The translations under genes and the position numbers were made by a program. 64,000 nt of DNA from Anaerosolibacter sp. (GTDB taxonomy: Bacteria; Bacillota; Clostridia; Peptostreptococcales; Thermotaleaceae). Position 1 is the first letter of the stretch; each line of letters begins with the position of its first letter. The notes under the pieces are model-generated. The model saw nothing but the letters and a program-made list of their open reading frames with translations. It ran no database searches and was not told the origin of the DNA. Positions 9,061 to 62,042 of the stretch are shown here, piece after piece. The stretch is taken from the NCBI RefSeq assembly GCF_029240175.1, contig NZ_JARBTM010000001.1:124001-188000 (forward strand). The letters run 5' to 3'.

Positions 9061-9215
9061 TTATTTAATAGGAAAGCTCTCCTTTCCTATTAAATAAAAG
9101 ACAGGGGTGCAGGGGAAGTATTCCCATGCCGTAGTCAGAGGGGTGCTCAGGCTGCATAGCAGCCGTCGAAGGGGAACTAGGTTCCCCTAGCGAAGGCATC
9201 GTTAGATGCTTTTTT
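9057..9215. repeat. Cluster of five hairpins, ending in a terminator-like hairpin
   Basis: This gene-free stretch is packed with palindromes: a perfect 20-bp stem (9057-9076 with 9082-9101), a GCAGGGGAA/TTCCCATGC stem (9109-9129), GGCTGC/GCAGCC (9150-9164), GGGGAAC/GTTCCCC (9171-9187), and GCATC/GATGC (9196-9209) followed by six T. No ORF or known riboswitch core is recognised. It could be a composite intergenic repeat or a structured leader for the peptidase gene downstream. Confidence 0.6.
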
Positions 9216-18248: not shown

Positions 18249-19841
18249 TCACCTTGCTGATACATAGCCTGTTTTCTCAATAAGGTTCTGCCCCTCATCG
18301 GACAAGACCCATTCCAAAAACTTGCTCACATTTTCATTGGTATTTGATTTCAGCGTTACAGCATATACTGGAACGGTAAATGGATATTCCTTATTTCGAA
18401 CGGTTTCAGGCGTTGGCTTCACCCCATTAACAGAAATATATTTGATCTGGTTGTTTTTGATCATGGAGGAAGAATAGTACATAAAGGAATATCCAATGGC
18501 GTTTTTGGCATTTTTATAGTTGGATACTTGGCTAATGATCTCTCCCATCCCTCCAGCATAGGTTTCCTTGGTGGGCTCCAACATTGTTCTATCCTTCATT
18601 ACTTTATTCTCCATAACAGTCTGACTGCCTGAATTCTCAGGCCGCTGATAAGGTAATATCTTCTTATTTGCTCCCCCAACATCTCTCCAGTTGGTGATCT
18701 TTCCAGCATAAATATCCTGTATTTCCTGGATGCTGAGATTCTCTACGGGATTTTTTATATTTGTGAAGAATACAAAAGCTTCATATCCGATGGGTGTCAA
18801 TACAAATTCATCACCCTTTTCTTTGCTCATCTCAACCTGGGCCTTTGATGGCTCTGCAACAAAGATTATATCGGTTTGCCCGTTAATCAATCGCTCATAG
18901 GCACCATTGGTCTTTGAGCACTGGACAATGTTGAAGGGATACTGCTTACTTTCCACGAAAGCCATATACACATCCTTCTCATGGCTGTCTTTATTTGCTT
19001 CATAGTATTCACCTAGCCCCTTATATACGGATTCCACAAATGCTCCATACACGGGATAGGCTGCGGTCGCCCCGTCGAGCCGGGGCATTTCTTCGAGTTC
19101 TTCAAATTGAAGGGACGCTTCACCATCTAACCTAGCCAATCCATTGTTCTCCTTAAAGGGAGCAATCTTAATTAGGTCAAATTCCGTCAAATCATTTCCC
19201 ACCGTTACCTCTCCATAACGTAATTCAAGGAAGCCATTTCCGATAATCTCTCTGTTACTGGCACCTAGGAAGATCACCACAAGAATGCTTACACCAGCAA
19301 GGATAATTTTTAATTTTTTCCCCATTTCGTTTTTTATGGATGCTTTTGTTGCCCTTTCATTGAGAAGGAGTCCCCCAACAAAACCTAGATATCCAGATAG
19401 CTCTGCCACTGGCATAACAAAGTGCAGGCCCATAAAGGCAATGATAAAATCAAAGATAATAAAAAATGGATTTTTGAATGCATAGATGCCCCACCACTGG
19501 GAGTTATAGTTTCCTTTGGAAAGGGTCACCGCCAGTACTGCAAAGATCAATGCGTACAGGATAGGAAATAAGGGTGTTAAATACCTGACCTTTGGAGATT
19601 CGGGTTTCTCTTTAGATCTTTTTGAGAAAACATACCCGACTGTGCCACCGACGACAAAAGGACCAAAAAAAGCCGCTAAAATGGCAATAAGCCTGAAAGT
19701 ACTTTTGCCGAGCTGTGCTAGACCCGGAAATTGACCCGCGATACTTAGCATGGCAATAAACAGGGGTGTGAGTATGACAGGAATCATAATCATCTGGGCA
19801 GCCAAAGAAGAAACGATATAGCTTCTATTTGATTTCATCAT
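18249..19841 (-). CDS. Membrane-anchored PstS-like phosphate-binding protein
   Basis: A 530-residue protein with an N-terminal membrane part of about 210 residues (four to six hydrophobic helices, including IVSSLAAQMIMIPVILTPLF and the last near KIILAGVSILVVIFLGA) and an extracytoplasmic C-terminal PstS-type solute-binding domain (about 245-530). The binding domain shows RLDGATAAYPVYGAFVE, TDIIFVAEPSK, IQDIYAGKITNWRDVGG and RPENSGSQT, all typical of periplasmic phosphate-binding proteins. No pstCAB genes are near. A sensory or scavenging role rather than classic ABC transport is inferred. GGAAAG lies just before the ATG pair at 19841. Confidence 0.78.
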   Translation of the reverse strand: MMKSNRSYIVSSLAAQMIMIPVILTPLFIAMLSIAGQFPGLAQLGKSTFRLIAILAAFFGPFVVGGTVGYVFSKRSKEKPESPKVRYLTPLFPILYALIFAVLAVTLSKGNYNSQWWGIYAFKNPFFIIFDFIIAFMGLHFVMPVAELSGYLGFVGGLLLNERATKASIKNEMGKKLKIILAGVSILVVIFLGASNREIIGNGFLELRYGEVTVGNDLTEFDLIKIAPFKENNGLARLDGEASLQFEELEEMPRLDGATAAYPVYGAFVESVYKGLGEYYEANKDSHEKDVYMAFVESKQYPFNIVQCSKTNGAYERLINGQTDIIFVAEPSKAQVEMSKEKGDEFVLTPIGYEAFVFFTNIKNPVENLSIQEIQDIYAGKITNWRDVGGANKKILPYQRPENSGSQTVMENKVMKDRTMLEPTKETYAGGMGEIISQVSNYKNAKNAIGYSFMYYSSSMIKNNQIKYISVNGVKPTPETVRNKEYPFTVPVYAVTLKSNTNENVSKFLEWVLSDEGQNLIEKTGYVSAR

Positions 19842-19936: not shown

Positions 19937-19965
19937 TTGAAAGTTTTTTATAGATATGATATCAT
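19937..19965 (+). promoter_or_regulatory. Promoter of the his leader / hisS transcript
   Basis: TTGAAA (19937-19942), 17-bp spacer, TATCAT (19960-19965). Transcription would start near 19972, just before the leader ribosome site AAGGAG at 19978-19983. Confidence 0.7.
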
Positions 19966-19991
19966 TCTTAATAATTTAAGGAGTGAAGGCA

Positions 19992-20042
19992 ATGAATCAG
20001 TCAAAACTAATCAATCTGTTTATCCATCATCATCACAGCTAA
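19992..20042 (+). CDS. Histidine leader peptide (16 residues, four His in a row)
   Basis: The ORF reads MNQSKLINLFIHHHHS followed by TAA. AAGGAG lies 8 nt before the ATG, a near-ideal ribosome site. Codons 12-15 are CAT CAT CAT CAC (20025-20036). A run of four histidines in sixteen residues, positioned between a consensus promoter and an intrinsic terminator in front of hisS, is the signature of ribosome-mediated transcription attenuation. The ribosome stalls here when charged tRNA-His is scarce. The His codons also pair with 20107-20117 in the RNA, so ribosome occupancy changes the downstream fold. The peptide probably has no other function. Confidence 0.85.
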   Translation: MNQSKLINLFIHHHHS

Positions 20043-20176
20043 GGCTTGTTTTATGGAAAAGAGCTTTCCATAGATACAGGCCTATAGGTATTTGTAGGTA
20101 TTGTATCTGTGGTGATGGGACTCGATGATTTCGTATATATACACCCATGCAGATACAATGACTGTATGGGTTTTTT
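20028..20176 (+). promoter_or_regulatory. hisS transcription attenuator (alternative RNA structures plus terminator)
   Basis: Competing pairings can be read directly. (1) His-codon segment 20028-20038 with 20107-20117, 11 bp including one G-U. (2) Hairpin 20052-20059 with 20065-20072, 8 bp. (3) 20068-20078 with 20102-20112, 11 bp. (4) Antiterminator 20100-20109 with 20150-20159, 10 bp perfect. (5) Terminator 20143-20152 with 20162-20171, 10 bp with one G-U, then six U. Pairing 4 removes the 5' arm of the terminator, and pairings 1 and 3 remove the 5' strand of the antiterminator. A ribosome stalled on the His codons blocks pairing 1, favouring readthrough. The mechanism is inference from complementarity. 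Confidence 0.8.
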
Positions 20177-20200
20177 ATTTGAAAAAAGGAGTGATATGTT

Positions 20201-21415
20201 ATGAAGTTTAGTGCAAAACCAGTAAAAGGAACCTTTGATGTTTTACCCGGGGATATGGAGCTTCGCAATTGGGTTCGAAACGTAATTAGCAATGCTTACC
20301 TTTCCAGGGGATATACCCAGATTGAAACCCCTTGTATTGAAAACTTAGATCTATTGACCAACAGTGAAGGGGGAGAAAACCTCAGTCTTTTGTTTAAGAT
20401 TCTTAAACGGGGCGAAAAGTTAGACTTCCAGGAGCTATCCGAAAATTCCCTATGCGATTTAGGCCTAAGATTTGATCTCACTTTGCCTTTAAGCAGATTC
20501 TATGCCAATAATCGAAATGAACTGCCTATGCCCTTTAAAGCTTTTCAAACCGGCTATGTTTGGAGGGCTGAAAGACCACAAAAAGGCAGGTTCCGTCAGT
20601 TTACCCAATGTGACATAGACATCATCGGTGACAAGACCATCTATGCAGAAATTGACTTAATGCTGACTGTACCAAAAGCATTGTATGATCTAGGATTTAA
20701 AAACTTTACCATAAAGATCAATGATAGACGTCTGTTGAAGCAGTTGGTATTGGCTGCTGGATTTGAAGAGAGCCAATTTGATACCGTTTGCATCACCTTA
20801 GATAAAACAGACAAAATAGGCACCGAAGGCGTCATCAACGATTTACAATCCAAAGGCTTTGAAAATGATAAGATTCAACAATTGCTCACCAGCTTAGAAA
20901 CTGATTTGGGAAGCTTTGATAGCTCTTATGCCCAAGATTTGAAAAAGATTATAGATACTACCGGAAAGTATTATTCCATTATATTTGACCCTACCTTGGT
21001 AAGGGGCATGGGCTATTACACAGGGCCTATCTTCGAAATTGTCAGTGATGAATTTAAAGGCTCCATCGCTGGGGGGGGAAGGTATGACAATTTGCTGAGT
21101 AAGTTTCAAAACGAATCCATCCCTGCCGTTGGCTTCTCCATAGGATTTGAACGAATCATTGGGATATTAAAGGAAAGGGGCTTTACGATACCTAACCAAA
21201 AAAGAAAGATTGCCCTTGTCGTTCTGGATGAAATGTTTGCCGAAAAGGCCATTGACCTTTCAGAAAGCTTAATTTGCCAAGGAAATATTGTTGTGATTCA
21301 TTATTTGAATAAGAAAAAATTAGGGAAGAAGATGGATGTTTTAGAGAAGGATGGCTACGAAATCATTCAAATCGTCGATGCGGAAACTACAGAAGATAGC
21401 TTTAGAAAACAATAA
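20201..21415 (+). CDS. hisS: Histidyl-tRNA synthetase (class II)
   Basis: This enzyme charges tRNA-His with histidine using ATP. The 404-residue protein has KPVKGTFDVLPGDM at the start, class II motif 2 in WRAERPQKGRFRQFTQCDID (about 122-141), the histidine-specific loop LVRGMGYYTGPIFE (about 266-279), GGGRYD, and motif 3 in VGFSIGFERI (about 310-319). These retain catalytic arginines, so I call HisS rather than the regulatory paralogue HisZ. The C-terminal anticodon domain (from about 335) is short, roughly 70 residues. AAAGGAG precedes ATG 20201. Expression is predicted to be controlled by the His leader attenuator directly upstream. It may be a second HisS copy. Confidence 0.82.
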   Translation: MKFSAKPVKGTFDVLPGDMELRNWVRNVISNAYLSRGYTQIETPCIENLDLLTNSEGGENLSLLFKILKRGEKLDFQELSENSLCDLGLRFDLTLPLSRFYANNRNELPMPFKAFQTGYVWRAERPQKGRFRQFTQCDIDIIGDKTIYAEIDLMLTVPKALYDLGFKNFTIKINDRRLLKQLVLAAGFEESQFDTVCITLDKTDKIGTEGVINDLQSKGFENDKIQQLLTSLETDLGSFDSSYAQDLKKIIDTTGKYYSIIFDPTLVRGMGYYTGPIFEIVSDEFKGSIAGGGRYDNLLSKFQNESIPAVGFSIGFERIIGILKERGFTIPNQKRKIALVVLDEMFAEKAIDLSESLICQGNIVVIHYLNKKKLGKKMDVLEKDGYEIIQIVDAETTEDSFRKQ

Positions 21416-61795: not shown

Positions 61796-62042
61796 ATTAT
61801 CATCCAAATTTACCTTTCCTGTCTCGGTCCTATTGGCTCAGAGCAGAATCCATTAATTTTCATCATTGATCTCGTTGGTATAGTTCTTTCGATACTATCC
61901 GCCCTTATTTTAACACATTCAGATTTCCTTAACAAGAAAAAAAACATTTCATAGATTTTCCATGATTTTTTAAAATACTGTAGAATTTCTTTGCTCATAC
62001 TAATAGTAGTCTTTCTAACTTAAAAGAAAAGAGGTGATATAC

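Follow-up and report, generated by a model that had tools for sequence, protein, structure and literature searches.

A putative His-codon attenuator upstream of a second histidyl-tRNA synthetase gene in Anaerosolibacter and its relation to the trpB motif

T-boxes are the usual control of aminoacyl-tRNA synthetase genes in Firmicutes. In the his leader of E. coli and Salmonella, alternating and mutually exclusive stems follow a leader peptide with a run of His codons. Leader peptides with His codons have been predicted in bacilli upstream of hisS* and hisZ (Naville and Gautheret 2010, PMC2965389), and His attenuators of his operons are reported from Peptostreptococcaceae, Lutispora, the B. cereus group and Erysipelotrichales (Ashniev 2022, PMC9413887). 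On a synthetase gene, a leader-peptide attenuator is reported from Rhodobacterales, the cysS leader uORFC-8-2 (PMC8632094). On the strength of covariation and gene context, the trpB motif (RF04312), with more than 900 representatives, was described as a strong riboswitch candidate, its authors not excluding a classic attenuator (Narunsky 2024, PMC11109978).

Here we analyze an element in a stretch of 64,000 nucleotides from Anaerosolibacter sp., hereafter the window. Judged by its scaffold and logic, and in the absence of expression data, it is very probably a ribosome-mediated transcription attenuator that senses charged tRNA-His, controls the downstream gene hisS2 and belongs to a modular class that includes the trpB motif. 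The first-pass annotation had likened it to the enterobacterial his leader. The logic is indeed common to both, but the element has no sequence match to that leader (no covariance-model match to RF00514), and its scaffold resembles that of Firmicutes leaders with Trp and Tyr/Phe codons. With the bacilli hisS*/hisZ leaders it has in common a His-run ORF and a terminator on a hisS paralogue, in company with a hisS that has a T-box, and the difference is that those leaders come from Bacilli (PMC2965389); the genomes searched here yielded no Bacillus hisS* leader. The his-operon attenuators likewise have three to five consecutive His codons, an antiterminator and a terminator, but control biosynthesis and not a synthetase (PMC9413887), while uORFC-8-2 has Cys codons and belongs to another phylum (PMC8632094). 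The arrangement had been called unusual in Clostridia, which it remains; unprecedented would go too far, given the predicted His leaders on bacilli hisS*/hisZ (PMC2965389) and on his operons (PMC9413887).

The regulated gene, hisS2 (20201-21415, plus strand), encodes a second histidyl-tRNA synthetase of 404 aa, identified by TIGR00442 (313.9 bits, cut-off 286.75), motifs and a tree. A hisZ identity was rejected, as TIGR00443 reaches only 173.3 bits, below its cut-off, while TIGR00442 is above its own. Alignments to solved HisRS retain RaERPqkGRFRqF, RGmgYYTG and GGGRYdnL, and we take the conserved Arg-bearing HisRS motifs kept in the protein to be catalytic. In hisS2 proteins the C-terminal end is short and diverged relative to canonical HisRS; tRNA recognition may differ. 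The closest named relative is Anaerosolibacter carboniphilus DSM 103526 (L063), with 87% identity over residues 1-402. The gene had been read simply as hisS, and the HisRS identity was right, but it is not the sole copy: the genome also has hisZ and a canonical hisS (423 aa) with a T-box immediately upstream. The hisZ-like gene adjoins a hisG-like gene, both named by eye. The tree sets hisS2 off from canonical hisS and from hisZ, and the program flagged long branches in it. This genome has two HisRS genes that seem to answer to different sensors, one to a T-box and the other to a translating ribosome. The divergent neighbor (18249-19841, minus strand) is extended at its N terminus and PstS-like in its C-terminal part, below the family cut-off.

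All parts of the element lie on the plus strand. The promoter (19937-19965) consists of TTGAAA at 19937-19942, a 17-nt spacer and TATCAT at 19960-19965; by reading of the sequence, the -10 hexamer is preceded by TG-A, an extended -10. Taken alone, the promoter scan falls short of significance (2 hits vs 3.0 expected in shuffles), and the leaders of two related loci, L034 and L035, have TTGAAA, 17 nt and a TATA-like box at the same upstream place. A Shine-Dalgarno sequence AAGGAG (19978-19983), retained in L034, precedes a leader ORF of 16 codons (19992-20042) that runs from ATG at 19992 to the stop TAA at 20040-20042 and encodes MNQSKLINLFIHHHHS. Four regulatory His codons, CAT CAT CAT CAC, occupy 20025-20036. 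Exact four-His-codon strings occur 33 times on both strands of the 3.87-Mb genome, and none of the 30 other entries examined, three of which overlap one another, falls within a short SD-led ORF (up to 60 codons); two further sites fell outside those 30.

Behind the leader peptide lie five strands, S0, S1, S2, T5 and T3, in which every strand is complementary to its successor. Neighboring pairings in this chain are mutually exclusive, and S2 has an additional partner in the His codons. S0 (20042-20057) begins at the leader stop and is defined by the S0:S1 duplex and covariation; that duplex has -21.7 kcal/mol, equalled in 0/200 shuffles. S1 (TCCATAGATACAGGCCT, 20067-20083) is defined by the first stem of RF04312, S1:S2, and covariation. 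S2 (20100-20117) has three partners: S1, in the helix 20068-20077 with 20103-20112; the His codons, in 11 pairs of which one is G-U (20028-20038 with 20107-20117); and the terminator 5' region, where ATTGTATCTG (20100-20109) and CAGATACAAT (20150-20159) form an antiterminator of 10 perfect pairs. The segment 20144-20159 holds both the terminator 5' arm CCCATGCAG (20144-20152) and the 3' strand of the antiterminator, which extends into the terminator loop. The terminator 3' arm CTGTATGGG (20162-20170) and a six-U tract (20171-20176) complete the element at 20162-20176. A simple terminator scan reported none; its loop limit was 8, and the loop here is 9 nt. The leader fold is more favorable than those of dinucleotide shuffles, with a z of -3.03, and was matched in 1/200.

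These readings bear out what the first-pass annotation had described, namely the promoter with its spacing, AAGGAG and the 16-codon ORF with its four consecutive His codons, the terminator with six U, the perfect 10-bp antiterminator overlapping the terminator 5' arm, and the 11-bp pairing of the His codons. Its set of stems was incomplete, as the S1:S2 helix had been missed. With an SD-led short ORF carrying a cognate codon run, an intrinsic terminator upstream of hisS2, and mutually exclusive antiterminator and anti-antiterminator, the element has the sequence features expected of a ribosome-mediated leader-peptide attenuator.

The proposed mechanism runs as follows. When charged tRNA-His is scarce, the ribosome would stall on the His codons and hide their pairing with S2. 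S0 would then take S1, a pairing that we infer for a ribosome delayed at these codons, and S2 would be left to capture T5, so that no terminator forms and hisS2 is transcribed. When charged tRNA-His is ample, the ribosome at the stop would hide S0, S1:S2 and T5:T3 would form, and transcription would end upstream of hisS2. Without a ribosome, the His codons would pair with S2 and the terminator would form; we infer that this is a protector pairing, which blocks S2 in the absence of ribosome cover.

At a relaxed threshold, cmscan aligned 20067-20181 to RF04312 with 49.6 bits (E 3.4e-6 on 351 nt). The gathering cut-off is 59 bits, so the window element is not a member by score. Nevertheless the alignment spans positions 1-107 of 107, the consensus stem and terminator are present, and S1:S2 and T5:T3 are helices of the RF04312 model. 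The trpB motif and our element have in common the S1:S2 stem, an antiterminator in its right shoulder and the terminator; they differ in that the motif is listed as a riboswitch candidate, with no leader ORF described in the available part of its publication (PMC11109978). The 30 loci above the cut-off that we examined carry Trp-codon leaders.

A search of 398 genomes of the phylum for RF04312 gave one match only at E<=1e-7, and the order of that genome was then searched. We assembled two sets of loci: 30 from 36 matches (E<=1e-5, 31/247 genomes) in the order to which the window belongs, none above the cut-off, and 30 above-cut-off loci examined out of 59 matches (E<=1e-6, 56/198 genomes) in another order, where 41 genomes have a match above the cut-off. 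At 59 of the 60 loci, the motif has an SD-led ORF that ends no more than 35 nt to its 5' side, vs 8.2% of 12,000 shuffles; the remaining locus, L100, has a His-run ORF without an SD by the rule used. That rule (GGAG, AGGA, GAGG, AAGG, GGGG or GGTG 4-17 nt from the start) is loose and was applied to the shuffles of the 60 loci as well. Codon clusters are present in most of these leaders: HHH in 18, W..W in 27 and three consecutive aromatic codons in 8, at shuffle rates of 0, 0.00025 and 0.0012, respectively. For L149 and L150 we took the second SD-led ORF, which contains WNSW, in place of a longer ORF without Trp.

In the proteins checked, the codons go with the genes. In the second set all 30 leaders contain Trp (a single one in three of them), and at the 27 loci where the downstream gene was within reach it looks like TrpX or TrpB by eye; L137 and L142 were checked. 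Of the proteins checked, TrpX, TrpB and HisS score above their family cut-offs. His leaders of the first set precede hisZ-like genes (L092 has HisZ as its best family, below cut-off), amino-acid ABC binding proteins (L078, SBP_bac_3), a 440-aa HisRS (L099, checked) and hisS2, and aromatic leaders precede BrnQ-like carriers (L080, checked, TIGR00796). Two leaders labeled YF, L088 and L094, stand upstream of an ABC permease and have scattered Phe only.

After removal of redundancy, 42 of the 60 loci served to build a model, R1. At E<=1e-5 it matched in 16/391 genomes of the class to which the window belongs and in 14/398 of a second class; removal of overlaps with the 60-locus set (2/20 and 8/24 matches) left 34 further loci. 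All 34 have an SD-led ORF at the 5' end of the model, a count without a shuffle control, and 33 have codon clusters by eye: 8 His, 5 Trp and 20 aromatic, of which the second class contributes 5 Trp, 1 His and 10 aromatic. The genes behind the YYFSYFR leaders of L203 and L207 encode shikimate dehydrogenase, with AroE above cut-off. Some of the 34 are closely related to training loci, and many loci of the class are close relatives, so the counts are not independent events. The one unclear leader, L186, has three consecutive Leu codons, no His, Trp, Tyr or Phe cluster and a sodium symporter-like gene behind it; perhaps this is a further specificity. Carriers of the branched-chain amino acid family stand behind the Tyr/Phe leaders of L080, L082, L086 and L168 (L080 checked, the others by eye), and these leaders therefore suggest transport of aromatic amino acids.

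Covariation was scored on a MAFFT alignment of the 42 loci that was not structure-fitted, with helices set by eye from row L137, which favors them over slid versions. S0:S1 is 91.5% paired with a covariation score of 0.312 (shuffled 0.147), S1:S2 95.9% with 0.189 (0.135), S2:T5 90.5% with 0.259 (0.215) and T5:T3 93.9% with 0.382 (0.211). Each of these four mutually exclusive helices scores higher than any of its 500 shuffles and any slid version. S2:T5 is the weakest: 17/500 shuffles reached it for pairs changed on both sides and 14/500 for pair types, and on these 2 of 5 measures a single slid version also did at least as well. The tool warns that relatedness can inflate covariation counts. 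At single loci, S0:S1 complementarity reaches p<=0.01 in 56/60, and pairing of the regulatory codons with S2 beats shuffles (p<=0.05) in 50/60, comprising 18/19 His, 22/30 Trp and 10/11 Tyr/Phe loci. The codon pairing seen in the window therefore seems to be typical of the class as a whole. Because the codons themselves pair with S2, a change of specificity would have to be matched in the RNA.

We also folded the RNA downstream of a modeled ribosome, beginning 12 nt beyond the first base of the A site. With the window transcript taken to the end of the terminator, a ribosome with His codon 12 in the A site left 9.7 expected S2:T5 pairs, and Ile codon 11 left 8.8, so the antiterminator is formed there too. 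Codons 13-14 gave a mixture (5.3 and 4.9 S2:T5 pairs), and codons 15-17 gave 0.0 S2:T5 and 15.1 S1:S2 pairs; the contrast is thus lost already at His codon 15. Without a ribosome there were 10.8 His:S2 pairs and 0.0 of the antiterminator. The intervals scored as T5 and T3 in this element lie two to three bases late, so the T5:T3 figures are low and S2:T5 may miss the pairs of 20144-20146.

Shorter transcripts behaved differently. The window transcript cut at 20163 had the antiterminator in every ribosome state. In transcripts cut just before T5, placing the ribosome at the first regulatory codon rather than at the stop left S2 freer by more than 0.3 in just 5/60 loci. In those ending with T5, a ribosome at the first regulatory codon gave more antiterminator than one at the stop in 27/30 Trp, 13/19 His and 6/11 Tyr/Phe loci. 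At the last regulatory codon the antiterminator mean was high for Trp only, and the contrast vanished on average for His and Tyr/Phe; in this 60-locus folding the T5 of the window was cut short. Because transcripts cut at 20163 or just before T5 do not bring out the contrast, the switch must rely on co-transcriptional order or on the pull of the terminator, and equilibrium folding cannot settle co-transcriptional order. The idea of a ribosome-mediated His attenuator, already put forward in the first-pass annotation, thus draws support from recurrence of the His run, covariation and folding of the full transcript, but not from folding of cut transcripts.

The leader ORF might instead act in another way, by an effect on mRNA stability or by translational coupling, with a constitutive terminator; in favor of this, folding of shorter transcripts by itself favors no switch. 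We consider this highly improbable: the antiterminator and anti-antiterminator pairings covary, and the leader stop lies 158 nt upstream of hisS2 with the terminator in between. Alternatively, the gene might respond to a DNA-binding repressor or, through a T-box, to uncharged tRNA, and the leader would be merely a remnant; this would be in keeping with the T-box of canonical hisS and with those found at five hisS2 loci of one clade. The window element itself gave no covariance-model match to the T-box family RF00230, in agreement with the first-pass annotation, and we regard this reading as scarcely credible, though that negative bears on the T-box alone.

A metabolite riboswitch with an incidental short ORF, as proposed for the trpB motif, has in its favor that RF04312 was published as a strong candidate (PMC11109978) and that S1:S2 and T5:T3 are the helices of its model. 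Against it stand the SD-led ORFs beside the motif (59/60 and 34/34 loci), most with codon clusters that fit the gene, and the covariation of S0, located at the leader stop, with S1. A single ligand pocket, moreover, would not serve His, Trp and aromatic genes on one scaffold, and the authors of the motif themselves left a classic attenuator possible in the part of the paper available (PMC11109978). A riboswitch is therefore very unlikely. We think it probable instead that the trpB motif, rather than being a riboswitch, provides the RNA half of leader-peptide attenuators, and that it shares with the hisS2 leader a single modular class in Firmicutes, with one conserved five-strand scaffold and exchangeable codons, a ribosome-read counterpart of the T-box that alternates with it upstream of hisS2. 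As part of that reading, His codons would be assigned to his operons and HisRS paralogues, Trp codons to trpX/trpB, and Tyr/Phe codons to aroE and probable aromatic transporters.

The alternation was seen by considering hisS2 in relatives. An hisS2-like match at E<=1e-60 is present in 33/148 relatives' genomes, our own included. A search of genome contigs gave 7 loci, of which 4 are hisS2-like (L063-L066); L067-L069 were dropped at 28-30% identity. In all, 34 hisS2 loci (L001, L034-L066) were scanned for His leaders, 33 of them distinct, as L063 is the locus of the sister species again. A short SD-led His-run leader is found at 5/33: the window, the sister species (L034, leader MKRSKQSNNLFIHHHHS), another genus of the family (L035, MNTIKGLLLHHHMHH), and two genera of another family (L053, L058). 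The ORFs at L039, L042 and L061, of 35-46 codons with a mere HH pair, were not counted. Five other loci of one clade (L047-L051) have T-boxes, and at 23/33 distinct loci neither leader nor T-box was found by these scans. Because five loci have a His leader and five a T-box, hisS2 alternates between two sensors, comparable to the hisS-gene switches reported in bacilli (PMC2965389).

The His run and the pairings are conserved in the sister species and the second genus, as the first-pass annotation would have them. L035 retains the stems and matches R1 at E 2.8e-7 though it lies outside the training loci. L053 and L058, two of the five hisS2 leaders, gave no match to R1 at E<=1, and their scaffold has therefore diverged or is another one. 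The genome of L053 (G109) also holds L105; there hisS2 and a hisZ-like gene each stand behind a His-run leader, and only L105 is among the RF04312 matches. Two other RNAs were noted. Clostridiales-2 RNA (RF02937) occurs in the window at 9095-9176, and in L035 another copy (2761-2845) separates the His attenuator from hisS2 and looks like an insertion; a pan motif RNA (RF01749) at 61815-61901 (minus strand) is upstream of oxidoreductase-like and PanB-like ORFs, both named by eye.

Taken by itself, the window element is a further example of published His leaders; what is new is a scaffold common to His, Trp and Tyr/Phe leaders, with exchangeable codons. Judging from gene context, the his-operon loci found here probably overlap the Peptostreptococcaceae cases of PMC9413887. 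The available part of that paper makes no link to the trpB motif, which was published later, and we found none between the motif and leader peptides or His attenuators in open-access papers, with preprints and supplements outside the scope of our search. If our reading is true, it would answer what the orphan trpB motif senses, and leader-peptide attenuation would be a recurrent, re-targetable system in Firmicutes. Leader codons would then predict the substrates of poorly annotated transporters, for example aromatic amino acids for BrnQ-like carriers.
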